IMG/VR virus record: IMGVR_UViG_3300030106_006901
Location: 1 to 33,459 of that record
DNA: 33,459 nt
Reading direction: 5' to 3' (one strand)
From: a virus
Each line of letters starts with the position of its first letter. The stretch's first letter is position 1. Positions 6 through 33,264 of this stretch are shown in pieces. Made by a program: the position numbers and the translations under genes. The notes under the pieces are model-generated. The model was not told the origin of the DNA. It saw nothing but the letters and a program-made list of their open reading frames with translations, and searched no databases.

Positions 6-583
<578 letters not shown>

Positions 584-6088: not shown

Positions 6089-6375
6089 GCTACGTTCGTT
6101 CCTTTTGTGAGTGTGGCTGCAGGCAACTTGCGGCGGGTGTCGTTCGCGATGCCCGCCGCCCCAAGCGCGTCGGTGACCACCGGCAAGTGTGCGCGCACCT
6201 GCTGCACCAAGCCGACAACTCGCCTGCGTTCGAGGTGCTGCACCGCTTCCCGAAACGCGCTCGCGACGAGGTGCCTCCCCCGCCACCCAAGGACTACCGT
6301 GAGCAGCGCATGTCCAAGGAGCGGCGGGAGTTGCGTCGTCGCATCATCCCGCTCAAGCACTGGCCCGTCCGATGA
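6085..6375 (+). CDS. Small basic CxCxC phage protein
   Basis: 96 aa from GTG overlapping the previous TGA (GTGA). The N-terminus has FCECGCRQL (C8, C10, C12) followed by a basic stretch with H and C (RRPKRVGDHRQVC, to C36). This is like the C-x-C-G-C-x-x-x ... R-x-R-x-x-x-x-H start of many short phage proteins and probably binds zinc. A Pro-rich segment (PPPPPKDY) and a strongly basic tail (MSKERRELRRRI) follow, suggesting nucleic-acid contact. Its position directly before the exonuclease suggests an accessory recombination or nuclease-related role, but no function can be assigned. Its TGA overlaps the next ATG. Confidence 0.65.
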   Translation: MSYVRSFCECGCRQLAAGVVRDARRPKRVGDHRQVCAHLLHQADNSPAFEVLHRFPKRARDEVPPPPPKDYREQRMSKERRELRRRIIPLKHWPVR

Positions 6376-7265
6376 ACCTGCAGTCGTTTTCCGACCGAGA
6401 AAGTTGGCTGAATGCCCGCCACGTCGGCGGATCCGATGTCGCAGTCATCCTGGGCGTGTCCCATTGGTCGACGCCTTACGACCTGTGGCTGGTGAAGACC
6501 TCAAGGGCCCAGCGCTTGCCGCAGACACCGTGGCAAGCCTTTGGGCACCTAGTCGAGGACGCCCTCCTTACCGATTGGGCATTGAGGCACGGTGCGGAGC
6601 GGCGCAACCTTGGTCTGTCCATTATCACCGGCTCGGAGTATTGGCAGACGATGTCTCCCGACGACCTGGTGCGGATTGACGACCAGGATGCGGGCATTGA
6701 CGCCAAGTTCTACCGCTTCCCGGCGAAGTCTGACGGCTGGGGAGAAGCAGGCACAGACGAAGTGCCCGTCGACATCTACCTGCAGATGCAGTGGGGCATG
6801 CACTGCTCCGGCTACGACGAGTGGCACATCGTTGCTGCGTTTCATCAGGTGGGAGAACTCCGCGACTACGTCATCCGCCGCGACGACGTCGTCATCGACC
6901 ACATCGTTGAGAAGTGCGGAGCGTGGCACCAGAAGCACATTATCGAAGACATTGCCCCTGAGCTGCAGGTGGGTCCGGTGGCCAACCTGTTTCACGGCAG
7001 CGTCGCGCAGACCGGCTCCGGTTCACGACGAGCAACGGAAGCTGAACGAGAAACCATCAAGGCTCGAGAAGCTGCGCGTCAGCAGCGACTGGACGCCAAG
7101 AAGCTGCAGGCGCTGCTCGACCTGCGATTGAAAGAAGCCATCGGTGAGGACGAGGGGCTCTGGCACGACGACTGCCGGGCCACCTGGAAGACCGCCACCA
7201 ATGGCAGCCGTCGATTGAACACCAAGGTGTGGGACATCGACACTGACCTCAAGGAGAACCAATGA
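6372..7265 (+). CDS. YqaJ-type viral recombinase exonuclease
   Basis: 297 aa. The lambda-exonuclease/YqaJ fold is visible: WLNARHVGGSDVAVILG (12-28, the usual R-x-x-GGSD-x-x-x-ILG), a conserved glutamate in GHLVEDAL (58-65, E62), SPDDLV (95-100), the metal-site strand GIDAKFY (108-114) and VP-x-x-Y-x-x-Q-x-QW-x-M (131-143). The usual E-x-K of this superfamily is D-x-K here (D110, K112). It degrades one strand of dsDNA from an end to leave a single-stranded tail for the annealase encoded next. The first third is the catalytic core; the last 80 residues are charged and helical. ATGA coupling on both sides supports a joint exonuclease-RecT unit. Confidence 0.88.
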   Translation: MNLQSFSDRESWLNARHVGGSDVAVILGVSHWSTPYDLWLVKTSRAQRLPQTPWQAFGHLVEDALLTDWALRHGAERRNLGLSIITGSEYWQTMSPDDLVRIDDQDAGIDAKFYRFPAKSDGWGEAGTDEVPVDIYLQMQWGMHCSGYDEWHIVAAFHQVGELRDYVIRRDDVVIDHIVEKCGAWHQKHIIEDIAPELQVGPVANLFHGSVAQTGSGSRRATEAERETIKAREAARQQRLDAKKLQALLDLRLKEAIGEDEGLWHDDCRATWKTATNGSRRLNTKVWDIDTDLKENQ

Positions 7266-8194
7266 CGACTGCACTCGACAACGGAAAGGCTGCGCTCATG
7301 CAGCGGTGTCGGCACCTGGCCGGCAACCAGACCATCAAGGACGTGGCTTCGGCGCACATCACCCCAGAGCGGGTGACGGCTTGCATCATGGCAGATGCCG
7401 AAACGTACCTGCGGTGCCTGAACAGCCAGAAGGGTCAAGCGTCCATCGCACGCTTTTTCATGGACTGCACCCAGCTGGGGCTGGAGCCGGGGGCCACGCG
7501 CGGCCTCATCTACGCCCTGCCGTTCGGCGGCGAGATCACCACGGTCATCGGCTACCGGGGCCTCTGTGAGTTGGCTCGACGAAGCGGCGAGATTCGCTAC
7601 CTCAGCGCGGGCGTGGTCTACGAAGACCAGTTGCGGTTGTTTTCCGCGACCGAGGAGCCGCCCTCGCTGGAGTTGAAGTTCGACCCGACCCTGAAGATTG
7701 ACCGCAGCGAAGACAAGCTGCGACTGGCCTACGCTGTTGCTGTCCTAAAGGGTGGCGGGCGAGCACAGGTCATCATGGACCGAGAGCAACTCCTCAGCAT
7801 CAAGAAGCAGTCGCCGTCGGGCGGCAACAAGTCCAGCCCCTGGAACAAGCACTTCGACCGCATGTGCCGCAAGACCGCGTTGCGTCGGTTGCTGACCAGC
7901 GGTGAGGTTCCGCTGGCGCTTGAGGTGGCGCAGGCGTTTGAGGTCGAAGACCGGGACATCATCGAGGCGACGTTCGAGGAGTTGCCCAAGAAGCCGGCGG
8001 CTCCGGGGCGTGCCGCTGCCCGCCAGGCGTTGGGCATTCCGCTTGCAAACGTGGCTCTCGAGCGGGATCTTCGCGAGCGTCACCCCGAAGCGGACAAGCT
8101 GCTGAATGAACTGGACGCGGAGGCTGCCGGCGACTTCGACAAGTACGTTGACCTGCTGCGTGCTGAGGTCGCTGGGCTGGAGTCTGGCGCGTGA
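7262..8194 (+). CDS. recT: RecT-family single-strand annealing protein
   Basis: 310 aa. Recognised by the RecT core: SIARFFMDCTQLGLEPGATR (compare A-x-x-x-GL-x-P), IYALPFGGEITTVIGYRGL (compare Y-x-x-P-x-x-x-x-x-x-x-x-x-x-GYKG), ELARRSG-x-I (compare the ...SG-x-V/I of RecT), the AVAVLKGGG-RAQVIM strand pair, and SPWNKHFDRMCRKTALRRLL (compare the W-x-x-x-x-x-x-M-x-x-KT-x-x-R signature). It coats the ssDNA made by the upstream exonuclease and anneals it to complementary DNA. The C-terminal 80 residues are acidic and helical, as often seen. The ATG overlaps the exonuclease stop (ATGA). Confidence 0.9.
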   Translation: MTTALDNGKAALMQRCRHLAGNQTIKDVASAHITPERVTACIMADAETYLRCLNSQKGQASIARFFMDCTQLGLEPGATRGLIYALPFGGEITTVIGYRGLCELARRSGEIRYLSAGVVYEDQLRLFSATEEPPSLELKFDPTLKIDRSEDKLRLAYAVAVLKGGGRAQVIMDREQLLSIKKQSPSGGNKSSPWNKHFDRMCRKTALRRLLTSGEVPLALEVAQAFEVEDRDIIEATFEELPKKPAAPGRAAARQALGIPLANVALERDLRERHPEADKLLNELDAEAAGDFDKYVDLLRAEVAGLESGA

Positions 8195-26091: not shown

Positions 26092-26586
26092 TCAGAACAG
26101 GTCGATGTAGGCAGTGGCGGCGGTGTTAGCGCCGACGGCAGCCCCCGTCACACCTGCGCCGTCATCGGTGGCGCCGCCAGCCTTGAACGCACCAGCGCTG
26201 GCGCCCGGCACGAACTTCTTGTTCGCCGCGACGCCGGCAGCGTCGCCAAGAATCTTGCCCCAACCCTTGGCAAGAACCCAACCGAAGTCGTTGATGGCAA
26301 ACGCCGACTGGGCGATACCGCCGGTCTTCAGCAGAGACGGGTCGTCAGCGCTGGGCACCAAGCGCATCTTGCTGGACGGTCCACCGGCAGCAACGATGCA
26401 GACACCTTCGCCAATCGCGACGGCAACGCCGGACTGCACGTAGCGCCAAATCTGGTGTCCGTTGGTGTAGTCCCAGACCTCGGCCAGCGAGCCGAGTTCA
26501 TGGATCTTGTCCGCTGCGCCGGCATCGCCGGGCTTGTTGATCGCGTTGCCCATGATGGGCTGGTTCAGCAGCTTTCCTCGAGGCAT
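26092..26586 (-). CDS. Capsid decoration/stabilisation protein candidate
   Basis: 164 aa. Its ATG overlaps the TAA of the capsid gene (TAATG), so it is probably coupled to it. The protein (MPRGKLLNQPIMGNAINKPG onward) is Gly/Ala-rich with short strands (VAVAIGEGVCIVAAGGPSS) and a small-residue C-terminus (GAGVTGAAVGANTAATAYID), as in small decoration or cement proteins found beside the major capsid gene in many phages. The frame stays open upstream inside the capsid gene, but those codons look like a shadow. Family not recognised. Confidence 0.5.
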   Translation of the reverse strand: MPRGKLLNQPIMGNAINKPGDAGAADKIHELGSLAEVWDYTNGHQIWRYVQSGVAVAIGEGVCIVAAGGPSSKMRLVPSADDPSLLKTGGIAQSAFAINDFGWVLAKGWGKILGDAAGVAANKKFVPGASAGAFKAGGATDDGAGVTGAAVGANTAATAYIDLF

Positions 26587-27650
26587 TAGGCCGCCCCTCC
26601 GGTGTAGGCGCCCTGAGCGGGCAGACGACGGCACATCCAGCCGCCCTGGAACGCAGCCTTCGCGACGAGTCCGTCGGCGTTGGCCACCTTGTCGGTAAAG
26701 TCGGAGAACGACCAGTCCTCGACGATGAACATCTCCCAGTGACGCATCGTCAGGATGTAGGCCAGACCGTCGCTGGCGTTGCCGCTGAAGACGCTGACGT
26801 CCAGCATCGGCTCGTCGATGACGGTGGCCTGACCCAGGACGTTTTCGGTCAGCAGCTTGTTGCCGCCGTCTTCCTGGTCGTTGATCAGCTGCAGACGGAC
26901 GCTGCCTTCCTTGTCGTCGTCGTAGTTTCCGAAGGTGTCGGAGTCCATGACGACCAGGTCGGGGCCCTTGCCGCGCATGCCGCTGTGGTGGGCACACTGA
27001 CGGTAGACCTTGCGAAGGGTCTTCTTGCCGGAACCACCGGACCAGTGGGCATCACCGAACTGGGTGTAGACACCGTTGGCCTGGCTACGGGACACGTTCT
27101 GAACGACGCCCGACTGGCTGCCGGGAGCAACGAAGCTGATGACGCCCGTGTCCAGACCGCGACCGCGACCGGTGGTGTGCTCGACGGACATGGTGAGGAA
27201 GCCCTCGAGGTCCGCAGCGTCCAGCACCAGGCTGTCGGTGGTGCCGCCCAGGATGAACTTGTTGAAGTCCATCGGGACGTACTCACCGATCTCCAGCACG
27301 TATTCGTCGATGAGCTTGAGCGCACCGTTGCGACCCTTGTTCAGGTTCGCCACCTTGATGGGGATGGTGCAGGGGACGACGATGCGTCCAAGTTCCAGCT
27401 CGTACTTGTCCTTGTTGGTGTACCGGGTCAGGTCCAGCGTCTCGTCGCCAGAGAAGATTCCGGTGCCCTTGGAGGGACTGCCCGTGCTGATGGGGCGGGT
27501 GGCGTAGGTGCCGTGGTGGTCGGTCGTGACCTTCGCCATCTTGCGCATGCGCTCGAAAACGTAGGCCTCCTGCGACAGCTGCTTCTCGAGCGGGCCGCGG
27601 AAGTCTTCCAGTTCAGCGTTGAGAATGTCAACGTCGAAAAAAGTCGCCAT
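26586..27650 (-). CDS. Major capsid protein (HK97-like)
   Basis: 354 aa from ATG at 27650 with GAGGT 7-8 nt upstream. The sequence shows the mixed alpha/beta plan of HK97-fold coats: an N-terminal arm with a helix (DILNAELEDFRGPLEKQLSQ, 8-27), a long E-loop-like part, a P-domain-like helical stretch (MRGKGPDLVVMDSDTFGNY, the common PDLVVMDS beta motif), then VIDEPMLDVSVFSG and the C-terminal LAYILTMRHWEMFIVEDWSF. Length, the PD-x-VVM-x-S motif, and position between scaffold and decoration candidates support this. It should be the most abundant virion protein. A promoter-like element and hairpin lie just upstream. Confidence 0.82.
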   Translation of the reverse strand: MATFFDVDILNAELEDFRGPLEKQLSQEAYVFERMRKMAKVTTDHHGTYATRPISTGSPSKGTGIFSGDETLDLTRYTNKDKYELELGRIVVPCTIPIKVANLNKGRNGALKLIDEYVLEIGEYVPMDFNKFILGGTTDSLVLDAADLEGFLTMSVEHTTGRGRGLDTGVISFVAPGSQSGVVQNVSRSQANGVYTQFGDAHWSGGSGKKTLRKVYRQCAHHSGMRGKGPDLVVMDSDTFGNYDDDKEGSVRLQLINDQEDGGNKLLTENVLGQATVIDEPMLDVSVFSGNASDGLAYILTMRHWEMFIVEDWSFSDFTDKVANADGLVAKAAFQGGWMCRRLPAQGAYTGGAA

Positions 27651-29644: not shown

Positions 29645-31369
29645 CTACCCCGCTGGGTTCAGCGTGGGATCCATTGCCAGTGCGGGCACACCCTCGACCG
29701 GCGGCACCTCAGCTCCCATTGCCGGGTCGCCGGGCACCGGAGCCGCAGGTCCAGGCGGCATCGGTATGCCGGGCATCGGACCTTCGACAAAACCAGGCGG
29801 CGCCATTGGCGGCTCGGCAGACGGAATCGCGATGGTCTTCTTCAAGTCGGGGTTGAGGTTCAGCGCATCCACGACCTCGACGCTGACGTCCCGCTGGTCG
29901 AACCCGCTGTCAGGCGACCGCAGGTCTGCCAGCGCAGCCAGGACGTTCTCCGCGCGAACCGCTGGGTTGGATCGTGCCGGGCTGTAGGCTTCCATGGTCA
30001 ACTCGACCGACAAGTCCTTCGGCACCACGACAACCTTGCCGGGCAGCACGGTTTCGGGAACGTACTTGGCCTCCAGCATCAGCAGCTTCTGCGACACCGA
30101 CGACCACACGTCGAACAACTCCTGCTGCATCTGCGCCAGCTGCGTGCGGAGGTAGCTGTCGATCATCGCCAGTTCGCGCGCGGTGCGGACGTTGGCGACT
30201 TGGCCGCGGACGGCATCGTTCATCGACGTCAGGACGCTGATGATCTTCTCCAGGCGATCCAGCAACTCGAGGTGGTCGCTGTCAAACGGCGCCTCTGGCA
30301 CCTTCCAGAAGAAGTCCGACATGTTGCCCGGCTTCTTGAGCGACAGCCCCTCAAAGCCATTCGGGGAGCGTGTCTCGCTGTTAAGCGCGGACGCCAACTC
30401 CTCGGCGTCGAAGGCTTCGGCGTCGTAAAAGAACAACGCCTCACGGCTGTCAGCGTGCCGCAGCCACGTCGTCAGGATTTCGTTGACCAGGTCTTGCAGG
30501 CCCAGCATCAACTGGATGACCGACAAGCCCCCGATACCTTCACCGTCCCAGTGCAGGTTGCCGATGTCCCAGGGGTCGTAGGACATCTCCTCGTCCATCA
30601 GCAGCGTGCCGTCGCAGCCCAGGTGCAGCACACGTTCCTCGAGGTAGTCGTAGACCTCGTAGATGGTGACGCACTGCAGCAGCTCATGATCGAGCACGTC
30701 CTTGACGCGCCGGTCGCCCGGCTTGCGCATCCAGTCAGGCAGCGTGTCAACGAGCGTGCTGTTGAAGTGCTCCTTGCCCACCTGCTTGTACAGGCGCTGC
30801 TGACCCTTGCGCGGGTACATGCGACGCCACGCCTTCGACTTCGGCACGGAGGTGGCGTGGATGACGTAGGCCCGGTCCTCGACGCGCCTCGCCGTCAGGT
30901 CGTAGAACACCCGGCGTGGGCTCTCGCAGCGAGCCACTGGCTTGCCGCCCTGCATGAGCGTCTTGACGTTGAACCGACCGTACAGGTAGCTCTCGACCAA
31001 TGACATCTTCTGTTCGCGCCGGGCCTTGCTCTTGGCGAGCCGGTAGTTGACGACGTCGTTGACATCATCCAACTGCTGGCGAGAGATGTCTCCCGTGCCC
31101 AGCAGAGCTGCACTGGCCTGCGGGTTGGGCGGCAGCAGCGCTGCGATGCCTGAGTCCACGGTGGCGAACACCAGGTTGAATGAGCAGTAGCGACCACCCT
31201 CGCCCATCTGGCTTTCCAGAGCAGGATGAACGTCGTGAAAGCGCCCTTGATACGCTTTCAGAGCGCGGTCGAAGACCGGCTTCTCCTCCTTCTCGTAGGT
31301 CTTGATGTGCGCCTCAATGAGGCGTAGCCAGTCGGTTCGCTTTTCGATGTTGGAAGCCACGATTCGCAA
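29645..31369 (-). CDS. Portal protein
   Basis: 574 aa from TTG at 31369, 8 nt after the TerL stop; GTG at 31360 is an alternative and neither has a strong ribosome site. The order after TerL and before scaffold is that of a portal. The N-terminal part has the helical clip/wing plan (EKRTDWLRLIEAHIKTYEKE), then FNLVFATVDSGIAALLPPNP, a common opening of portals of this type (F-x-x-V-x-x-x-I-x-x-L-x-P). The middle carries IQLMLGLQDLVNEILTTWLR and the long tunnel-loop helices (ELLDRLEKIISVLTSMNDAV, RELAMIDSYLRTQLAQM). The last 70 residues are Pro/Gly/Met-rich and probably disordered. It forms the dodecameric ring through which DNA enters. Confidence 0.85.
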   Translation of the reverse strand: MRIVASNIEKRTDWLRLIEAHIKTYEKEEKPVFDRALKAYQGRFHDVHPALESQMGEGGRYCSFNLVFATVDSGIAALLPPNPQASAALLGTGDISRQQLDDVNDVVNYRLAKSKARREQKMSLVESYLYGRFNVKTLMQGGKPVARCESPRRVFYDLTARRVEDRAYVIHATSVPKSKAWRRMYPRKGQQRLYKQVGKEHFNSTLVDTLPDWMRKPGDRRVKDVLDHELLQCVTIYEVYDYLEERVLHLGCDGTLLMDEEMSYDPWDIGNLHWDGEGIGGLSVIQLMLGLQDLVNEILTTWLRHADSREALFFYDAEAFDAEELASALNSETRSPNGFEGLSLKKPGNMSDFFWKVPEAPFDSDHLELLDRLEKIISVLTSMNDAVRGQVANVRTARELAMIDSYLRTQLAQMQQELFDVWSSVSQKLLMLEAKYVPETVLPGKVVVVPKDLSVELTMEAYSPARSNPAVRAENVLAALADLRSPDSGFDQRDVSVEVVDALNLNPDLKKTIAIPSAEPPMAPPGFVEGPMPGIPMPPGPAAPVPGDPAMGAEVPPVEGVPALAMDPTLNPAG

Positions 31370-31377
31370 AGTAACAC

Positions 31378-32976
31378 TCAGCGGCGCCGTCGTGGGCTTT
31401 TGACGAGTCTGTCGATGTCAGCGACCGACAACCCGATCTTCGGACTGGGCGCTTCCTTTGGTGGTGCCCATGTCCGGTGATGGAACACCCAAGCTGCCAT
31501 GAACAGGCAAATGAGGCGCTCGTAGTGGTGCTGGCTGTCATCGTCAGACTGCCTGCGGCGCTTCCAGCGCCCGTCCCAGGTTAACGCCTGGTGCAACGTC
31601 GACATCGTTCGGACGGTGAACAAGTCCTCGAGCAGCCCCTTGATGAGGTAGCCCTCAGCCTGCTTCTTCCGCAGCGCCGTCGTGTAGAAGCCGGGGTGGT
31701 CATCGCTGTGACGCCAGATGTTTGAGTAGCCGTAGGCCACGACTGTGGCGATGCAGGCGGCCTGGTTGCTCTCGACGACCAGCAGCGCATCGTTGAAGAA
31801 GCGCGCAACGTTGATGCAGCGGTCAGCGAAACGAGCGGGGTCTTCTCGAGCCTGGAACGAGGCGACCTCGGTGAACGTGTGCGCATCGAAGACCAAGATC
31901 CCCGACGGGTCACCTGCGCGACCGTAGCTGTTCGGGTCAGCGAAGGCGACGTACTGGCGACCCCATTCGGGGTACTCAAGCACGGAGCACCGCGCCTCAA
32001 AGTCGTAAGGCGGGTCACGCACAGCTTCTGTGAGCTGGCGCTCGATGGCGTCTTTCGGCAGCTTGGGCGTCAGCGACGACACAAAACCGGCGTGCGGGTT
32101 CGGCGGATACTTGTTGGTAAACAGCCACTCTTTGCCGCTGAACTCGCTCTCGAGGATGTCTCGGCGGAACTTTAGGTGCTCTAAAGACGGCTCGGTCGCG
32201 TCACCCACCCCCAAGCGCTCGTTTGCCTTGTTGGTCGCCAGCACAGTCTCGACGTAGGCAATGTCATCGTTGCCCGGCTTCCAGCCATCGAAGCGTTTGG
32301 CTTGATCAGGTGGCAGCACGCAGGTGTCGTCTTCCCACCAGCGCAGGAAGGTCGGGTGGTACATGCCCTTGCCCTCCATCGCAGCCAGCCACATGCGGTG
32401 CTGTCGGCACATGTGCTCCCCAGGCGTGCCCTCGTTCCAGCCTCGAGCGTTCGGCCTCTTGCGGAAACTGGGCATGATGTGGCCCATCGCTGCGTCCGCG
32501 TTCTCCCATTCGCCAAACTCGGTGAAGACGTAGCGGTCAGGGCTGGTGCCCATTGCAGGCTTCGTCTCTTTGCCTCGTCCCGACGTGATGCCGACCACAC
32601 GACCCTTGTGCATTACCTGGAGCATGTGCATGTTGCGGCGGATGAACGGCACCTTGACCGCTTTCGGCAGCCAATCGTAGGCGTCGTGCATGCGGCCCAT
32701 GGCTTCGTCGACCGTCTTCTCGGCGTTGGCAATCAACAAGCCCTTCAGACCCTTGTTGTACAGGATCTGACCCAGCATCCACATCACACACCAGGTCGTG
32801 ACCTTCGCCTGCCGGTACTTGACTACGATGTTGTGCCGGTGCTCGATGGCTCGCTGGGCGAGCAGGTCTTGAACAGGCGTCGGGACCAGCGAAACAAGAC
32901 GCTCGTCTTCGGTCACAATCTTGCACAGCCGGGGAAACCGGTGCGGGTTTCGCAGCTTCTGGAGGCGTGTCGCCAG
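31378..32976 (-). CDS. terL: Terminase large subunit (TerL), start probably upstream of first GTG
   Basis: The frame from GTG 32916 gives 512 aa; I extend it to CTG 32976 (532 aa) because GGAAGGG precedes that codon and the added residues (ATRLQKLRNPHRFPRLCKI) continue naturally into VTEDERLVSLVPTPVQDLLA, as terminase N-termini do. Counting from the GTG: Walker A-like KYRQAKVTT (33-41, with lysine where glycine is usual), Walker B-like RYVFTEFGEW (128-137, E133, TE instead of DE), nuclease-type YVAFADPNSYGRAGDPSG (D near 326) and LLVVESN (near 378). TerL drives DNA packaging by ATP hydrolysis and cuts the concatemer. An in-frame TGA at 32980-32982 separates it from the upstream gene. The exact start is uncertain. 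Confidence 0.82.
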   Translation of the reverse strand: MATRLQKLRNPHRFPRLCKIVTEDERLVSLVPTPVQDLLAQRAIEHRHNIVVKYRQAKVTTWCVMWMLGQILYNKGLKGLLIANAEKTVDEAMGRMHDAYDWLPKAVKVPFIRRNMHMLQVMHKGRVVGITSGRGKETKPAMGTSPDRYVFTEFGEWENADAAMGHIMPSFRKRPNARGWNEGTPGEHMCRQHRMWLAAMEGKGMYHPTFLRWWEDDTCVLPPDQAKRFDGWKPGNDDIAYVETVLATNKANERLGVGDATEPSLEHLKFRRDILESEFSGKEWLFTNKYPPNPHAGFVSSLTPKLPKDAIERQLTEAVRDPPYDFEARCSVLEYPEWGRQYVAFADPNSYGRAGDPSGILVFDAHTFTEVASFQAREDPARFADRCINVARFFNDALLVVESNQAACIATVVAYGYSNIWRHSDDHPGFYTTALRKKQAEGYLIKGLLEDLFTVRTMSTLHQALTWDGRWKRRRQSDDDSQHHYERLICLFMAAWVFHHRTWAPPKEAPSPKIGLSVADIDRLVKSPRRRR

Positions 32977-32979
32977 TAG

Positions 32980-33264
32980 TCAGCCCTTCCACTTCACCTT
33001 GTTGGCCCACCAGGCTGCGGACATCTTGCCTCGCTTGATGTTCTTGCGATGACGGTCTTTGAACGCCTTGCGCTGCTTGGCAGACTGGTTGGTCTTCGCT
33101 CCCTGCTCACCGAAACGAATGAGCTTGACCTGATCTCCCTCCTGAGCAACCACGACGTGCGACTTCGTCGGGTGGTCAGGCGTGCGCTTAGGCTTGTTCA
33201 CGCCAGACACCCTGGCTTGCGCAATCAGACGACGCCGAAGGCTTGATTTGCGTTTCTCCGACAT
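32980..33264 (-). CDS. Small basic conserved phage protein before TerL
   Basis: 94 aa from ATG at 33264 with GGAAGG 5 nt upstream. Very basic: RKSSLRRRLIAQARVSG at the start, then a strand-like VVVAQEGDQVKLIRFGEQG and a C-terminal motif AKQRKAFKDRHRKNIKRG with MSAAWWANKVKW. This ending (R-x-x-F-x-x-RH ... W-x-x-K-x-W) resembles a group of small uncharacterised phage proteins. It sits where a small terminase is often found, but has no HTH signature. DNA or nucleic-acid binding is likely from charge. It shares the reading frame with TerL, separated by one TGA. Confidence 0.65.
   Translation of the reverse strand: MSEKRKSSLRRRLIAQARVSGVNKPKRTPDHPTKSHVVVAQEGDQVKLIRFGEQGAKTNQSAKQRKAFKDRHRKNIKRGKMSAAWWANKVKWKG

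Follow-up and report, generated by a model that had tools for sequence, protein, structure and literature searches.

On balance, it appears probable that the large terminase gene (terL) of this divergent, uncultured phage starts at a CTG codon, at 32976, by initiation coupled to the gene directly upstream, which encodes a 94-residue basic protein. CTG 32976 is favoured because of the profile gain found upstream of the first canonical codon, the positions at which relatives could start, the 3-nt spacing from the upstream stop and the score of the preceding ribosome site. The window, meaning the whole stretch of DNA that was analysed, is an entire virus record of 33,459 bases. The features of the junction are as follows:

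32980..33264, minus strand: gene for the 94-residue basic protein of the PHROG 7595 family (phrog_7595, E 1.1e-30), from ATG 33264 to TGA 32982-32980
32984..32990, minus strand: GGAAGGG, probable ribosome-binding site within the 3' end of the small gene (predicted duplex -6.0 kcal/mol)
32974..32976, minus strand: CTG, proposed terL start codon from its position and ribosome site, +3 nt from the TGA
31378..32976, minus strand: terL, large terminase, 532 residues counted from the CTG, assigned by gp17 homology, TerL family alignment and predicted fold
32914..32916, minus strand: GTG, the first canonical in-frame codon, probably internal (+63 nt from the stop, site score -1.8)
32990..32992, minus strand: GTG in a different frame, a rival start that presupposes either a contig indel or a +1 shift (site score -5.4)
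29645..31369, minus strand: probable portal gene, downstream of terL (phrog_156 portal, E 0.00028, a weak match)

The terminase frame is open for 533 codons past the TGA at 32982-32980, up to the stop at 31378. An earlier note on this DNA had described an open frame without ATG, GTG or TTG between that TGA and GTG 32916, a GGAAGGG placed 7 nt before CTG 32976, and an upstream basic protein in the frame of the terminase, and the sequence bears it out on all three points. None of the three canonical starts occurs in the 21 codons that run from CTA 32979 through ATT 32919, GTG 32916-32914 being the first; the GGAAGGG at 32990-32984 is separated from CTG 32976 by a spacer of 7 nt; and the ORF of the basic protein (94 residues, 33264-32980) shares the frame. 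Two more in-frame CTGs, at 32955 and 32928, precede GTG 32916, and of the five codons that separate the TGA from Leu6, CTG 32976 alone differs from ATG by one base. In our judgement a start-free stretch of 21 codons is not uncommon per se, and what lends it importance here is solely that this DNA appears to encode protein.

The terminase and the coding potential of its first codons

Sequence comparison and predicted fold identify the protein as a large terminase of the T4 gp17-like type. It matched in tblastn the gp17 terminases of T4-like phages, mostly cyanophages (about 21-27% identity, E down to 4e-14), with alignments that start at query residues 2 to 20 among the gp17 matches listed, and its score against a gp17 profile that we made from 12 sequences was 88.7 bits. 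A family of IMG/VR terminases (L088-L215, reached via L075) shares many invariant residues with it at 22-27% identity in the 21 members aligned. No relative above about 27% identity was found, including in a search of viral_contigs with the terminase alignment (best 80 of 140), and no closer TerL relative turned up in viral_contigs or genome_contigs; plasmids gave one weak TerL match. Pfam and NCBIfam returned no terminase match, the PHROG 5989 terminase matched weakly (E 0.0029), and the sequence search of solved structures returned one chance-like match and nothing else. Searches of viral_contigs and phages for the portal and the major head protein found nothing. The terminase of a gut phage contig (L082 2459-4942, MT835790) looks as if it were split by an intein that includes an HNH-like segment.

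The AlphaFold model (mean pLDDT 71, pTM 0.51) presents an ATPase domain followed by an RNase H-like nuclease domain, and it aligns with the ATPase domain of T4 gp17 (2o0h; Z 22.1, 249 residues, 2.7 A) and with the nuclease domain of RB49 (3c6h_B; Z 24.6, 182 residues, 1.9 A). Glu154, Asp348 and Glu403 are invariant in the TerL alignment; we take the first to be the catalytic Glu after Walker B and the other two to be the first two acidic residues of the nuclease. At the third acidic position (31521-31519, minus strand) there is Glu487, versus Asp in most relatives. The P-loop (32814-32794, minus strand) has the sequence RQAKVTT, in contrast to RQxGKS in most aligned relatives, and the Walker A lysine is thereby displaced; Arg56-Gln57 are retained and the near-invariant Gly-Lys-Ser of the relatives is Lys-Val-Thr. 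The protein is like the T4-like gp17 proteins (those of cyanophages and that of T4, 3cpe/2o0h) in its homology over most of the length and in the same predicted two-domain fold, but differs from them in this changed P-loop and in lacking the residues that they have ahead of model residue 1. Moreover, of the nine annotated gp17 genes that were compared, eight have a Met codon and one a Val codon at the start.

The frame upstream of GTG 32916 appears, for the most part, to be coding. Against the gp17 profile the N-terminal part of the protein scores 70.9 bits with residues 1-21 and 62.7 without them, a gain of 8.2 bits. The higher score was reached by none of 2000 shuffles and by two of 2177 stop-free peptides of the whole stretch, and the remaining two frames of the same DNA score 63.4 and 63.7 bits; in a separate shuffle test with the gp17 profile, 1 of 500 shuffles reached the real score. 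It had been proposed that this stretch reads like a terminase N-terminus, and the profile bears this out for residues 13-21, where the gain is located (3 of 1000 shuffles of these residues match the real score); residues 1-16 make no measurable contribution to the gp17 score (398 of 1000 shuffles equal the real one). PHROG 26724, of unknown function, whose alignment begins at residue 5, scores 23.5 bits with the whole protein and 16.0 bits with the form truncated to GTG 32916, and Leu9 and Pro12 are invariant across the 22-row terminase alignment. Short N-terminal profiles beat chance weakly: the one built from the family gave 1.9 bits (equalled in 55 of 2000 shuffles and in 76 of 4020 windows) and the one that also included T4-like sequences gave 0.6 bits (149 of 2000 and 172 of 4020). 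Since these short profiles are weak and the L088-L129 family profile stops short of the terminase N-terminus, the claim of homology for residues 1-16 is a limited one.

Codon usage gives modest support to the coding of the first 21 codons, which score +2.82 in the terminase frame and -2.35 and -4.94 in the others. The support is modest because, in the reference set, true genes average 6.1 (sd 4.8) and off frames -6.2 (sd 5.4) with a 95th percentile of 2.85, close to the value obtained. The training set consisted of hand-picked ORFs, one of which (26092-26997) overlaps the ORF at 26586-27650 and is probably too long. The earliest codons are not coding-like (CTA -0.81, ACA -1.31). In the model, helices are predicted at residues 2-9 and 15-18 and a strand at 20-22 that ends at the codon of GTG 32916, and the range aligned with T4 gp17 (105..357) opens at model residue 1, these ranges giving the ends only.

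Start positions in relatives and spacing within the genome

The positions at which relatives could start were compared in 73 distinct distant relatives, which were left from 118 terminase ORFs (119 loci) after the removal of 39 duplicates and 6 without the anchor; what was recorded are available ATG, GTG or TTG codons, which need not be true starts. All 73 have such a codon 19-66 residues before the conserved anchor Asp: in 70 it lies 21-66 residues ahead and in the other three it is a TTG at 19. CTG 32976 is 21 residues ahead of the anchor-equivalent residue and GTG 32916 is one ahead. According to the earlier note, relatives that start at the position of GTG 32916 would speak against its reading, and none of the 73 has a canonical codon there. 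It must be taken into account that 20 of the 73 have a canonical codon within 3 residues of it and 33 have one less than 19 residues ahead of the anchor, and thus available codons do not prove starts. The nearest available start is 24-29 residues before the anchor in 59 of the 73, so that the CTG-started protein would be among the shortest; the commonest distances, 26 and 27, account for 43 of the 70 relatives with a start at 20 residues or more. With starts chosen by us, an ATGA or GTGA overlap of start and upstream stop is seen in 24 of 38 relatives, some of them nearly identical.

The IMG/VR family shares invariant residues with this terminase but differs from it in having an available canonical codon at these distances in all 73 distinct members compared. 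The best precedent for the arrangement of the two genes is one of its members, L110, where a gene related to that of the small protein (53.6%) lies directly upstream and ends in TAA, with the GTG of the terminase immediately next and in the same frame. A second copy of the start region was sought with two DNA patterns spanning the junction, in a collection from which very near records may be left out, and none was found.

Within this genome, 18 other tandem late junctions were listed from hand-picked ORFs, and in 16 of them a canonical start is found between -8 and +18 nt relative to the stop that precedes it. The gap is exactly +3 in three of the 18 (TAG-GTC-GTG, TGA-GTC-ATG and TGA-GTC-ATG), as it is at the terL junction, TGA-CTA-CTG, while GTG 32916 would sit at +63. 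A CTG at +3 from a stop trinucleotide occurs in 25 of 1318 cases. Ribosome-site scores are duplex energies calculated with the anti-SD sequence ACCUCCUUA. CTG 32976 scores -6.0 kcal/mol, a value reached by 12.1% of 2000 random positions, and the other candidates score -5.4 (GTG 32992), -1.8 (GTG 32916), -1.9 (CTG 32955) and -2.4 (CTG 32928 and ATT 32919). To judge from these sequences, there is a fair candidate for a ribosome-binding site preceding CTG 32976.

At the junction of the probable portal gene (31381-31358, minus strand) there is no nearby ATG, the options being a CTGA overlap at -4, a TTG at +8 and a GTG at +17, and from the sequence a second CTG start in this genome, that of the portal gene, is conceivable. 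For the ORF at 11738-10545 (minus strand; first codon 11738-11736), the sole canonical start near the junction is a TTG that lies 44 nt within the gene before it. On the plus strand, 6372-8194 carries genes for a RecE-like exonuclease and a RecT-like annealing protein.

The small basic protein (32980-33264; relatives L002-L081 and L085-L087) is widespread, PHROG 7595 members being found in 593 viral_contigs stretches. We compared 83 rows, namely the best 80 of the 593 viral_contigs loci plus three named phage records, 69 of them distinct. In 36 of these 83 loci the stop of the small protein runs into an ATG as TAATG or TGATG.

Alternative readings of the junction

A single-nucleotide indel in the contig, between about 32992 and 32964, would place the true start at GTG 32992 or, with an additional substitution, at the CTGA at 32983. 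This is unlikely, although GTG 32992 lies 26.3 codons ahead of the anchor, next to the distances that are commonest in relatives, its ribosome-site score is -5.4, and the CTGA occupies here the place of the ATGA/GTGA overlap. Against such an error, homopolymers in the stretch are never longer than 3 nt, the ORFs picked by hand for the remaining late genes are tiled along the strand, codon usage in the frame of GTG 32992 is -2.35 versus +2.82 for the terminase frame, and the Leu three residues ahead of LRNP, common in relatives, is present in the terminase frame only. The same near-modal distance and fair ribosome site would serve a programmed +1 frameshift, in which ribosomes starting at GTG 32992 inside the small gene would pass its TGA in another frame and slip forward by one base before residue 6 to enter the terminase frame; however, no slippery site is apparent by eye, no such arrangement was noticed in a relative, and both the frameshift and this particular route are extremely improbable. 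If it were true, the output of the motor would depend on the slip rate. Another reading concerns a substitution at the start codon itself: were the C at 32976 wrongly sequenced, or a defective variant within a population that has ATG, GTG or TTG, a single change would restore a canonical start codon 3 nt from the stop and properly spaced from the ribosome site. We consider this improbable, as in our judgement an error in precisely this base is improbable a priori.

The remaining alternatives keep the DNA as it reads. That GTG 32916 is the true start, with the upstream frame untranslated and a 512-residue terminase with a short N-terminus, is quite unlikely; it is the first canonical start codon, and short N-termini do exist, since the alignments of the solved D6E and Sf6 terminases begin only at model residues 28-37, but no relative of the 73 has a canonical codon there, the gap of 63 nt comes with a ribosome-site score of -1.8, and the truncation costs 8.2 bits against the gp17 profile and 7.5 bits against PHROG 26724. 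Initiation at another near-cognate codon of the open frame, CTG 32955, CTG 32928 or ATT 32919, is very improbable. The solved terminases of HK97 and P74-26, whose residue 4-5 aligns to model residue 10-11 and which so begin near residue 6-7, would agree with a start of this kind, but the three ribosome-site scores are low (-1.9, -2.4 and -2.4) and a start at CTG 32955 would come at the expense of the invariant Leu9. The earlier note had left both CTG initiation and readthrough of the TGA as possibilities; CTG 32976 is now the best-supported reading, and a readthrough fusion of the 94-residue basic protein and the terminase is disfavoured and hardly to be expected, even though both ORFs share the frame and this TGA is the sole stop that separates them. 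A regular fusion is unlikely because the stop of the small protein is conserved, at residues 92-94 in its own numbering in 71 of the 83 relatives and thus within two residues of this site (the other 12 run 6-37 residues further), because ARAGORN finds zero tRNA genes, hence no suppressor tRNA, within the 33,459-nt stretch, and because TGA is an ordinary stop here that terminates 13 of 19 late ORFs. Moreover, L110 has TAA followed by a GTG start at the equivalent junction.

CTG initiation and its known precedents

In the reading that we favour, initiation at CTG 32976, ribosomes translating the 94-residue gene would terminate at TGA 32982-32980, the GGAAGGG just upstream would help them to restart 3 nt further on, and formyl-Met would be placed at the CTG, giving a terminase of 532 residues (MATRLQKLRNPHRFPRLCKIV...) whose output would be low. 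We infer the use of the CTG codon, the coupling to the upstream gene and the low output from the features of the junction. Common gene finders generally consider ATG, GTG and TTG only, and the start of this gene would probably be placed some 20 residues too far downstream.

Starts at CTG are very rare, amounting to 20 of nearly 85,000 genes in PMC11983097, which also puts expression from CTG about ten-fold below that from TTG. The same paper describes rep of the RepFIB replicon of F-like plasmids, which is CTG-started although most GenBank records wrongly give a GTG 14 codons downstream, and we regard it as the closest precedent. Both genes have a ribosome site before the CTG (GGAGG/GGAAG in rep, as given there, and GGAAGGG with a 7-nt spacer in terL), and in terL a GTG 20 codons downstream would be picked just as the downstream GTG is in the misannotated rep. 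In contrast, rep is a plasmid replication gene whose start is backed, according to that text, by N-terminal analysis and by a CTG to CTC mutation, and the terL start is proposed from the sequence alone.

According to PMC10666635, translational coupling depends on genes that overlap or are very closely spaced, and the termination-reinitiation pairs treated there resemble terL in having a start a few nucleotides from the upstream stop, but their commonest spacing is an overlap of -4 or -1, as opposed to a gap of +3 with CTG. Other reports also bear on CTG starts: one phage has an ORF with a predicted CTG start, ORF10, the terminase of the same phage being ORF43 (PMC3338817); an annotation that permitted CTG starts assigned none (PMC9503643); and in mycobacteria CTG was not enriched as a leadered start (PMC4633059), which speaks against CTG as a strong start. 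No report of a CTG-started terminase was found in the titles, abstract openings and excerpts examined of open-licence papers.

As judged from the junction, terL would join the known class of CTG-started genes, in this case in a phage packaging gene. If true, it would be a clear example of a CTG-started packaging motor in a phage late operon, and it would show that annotation can cut true N-termini off phage proteins. The choice of start codon, together with the coupling, would then suggest that the terminase is kept scarce relative to its neighbours.
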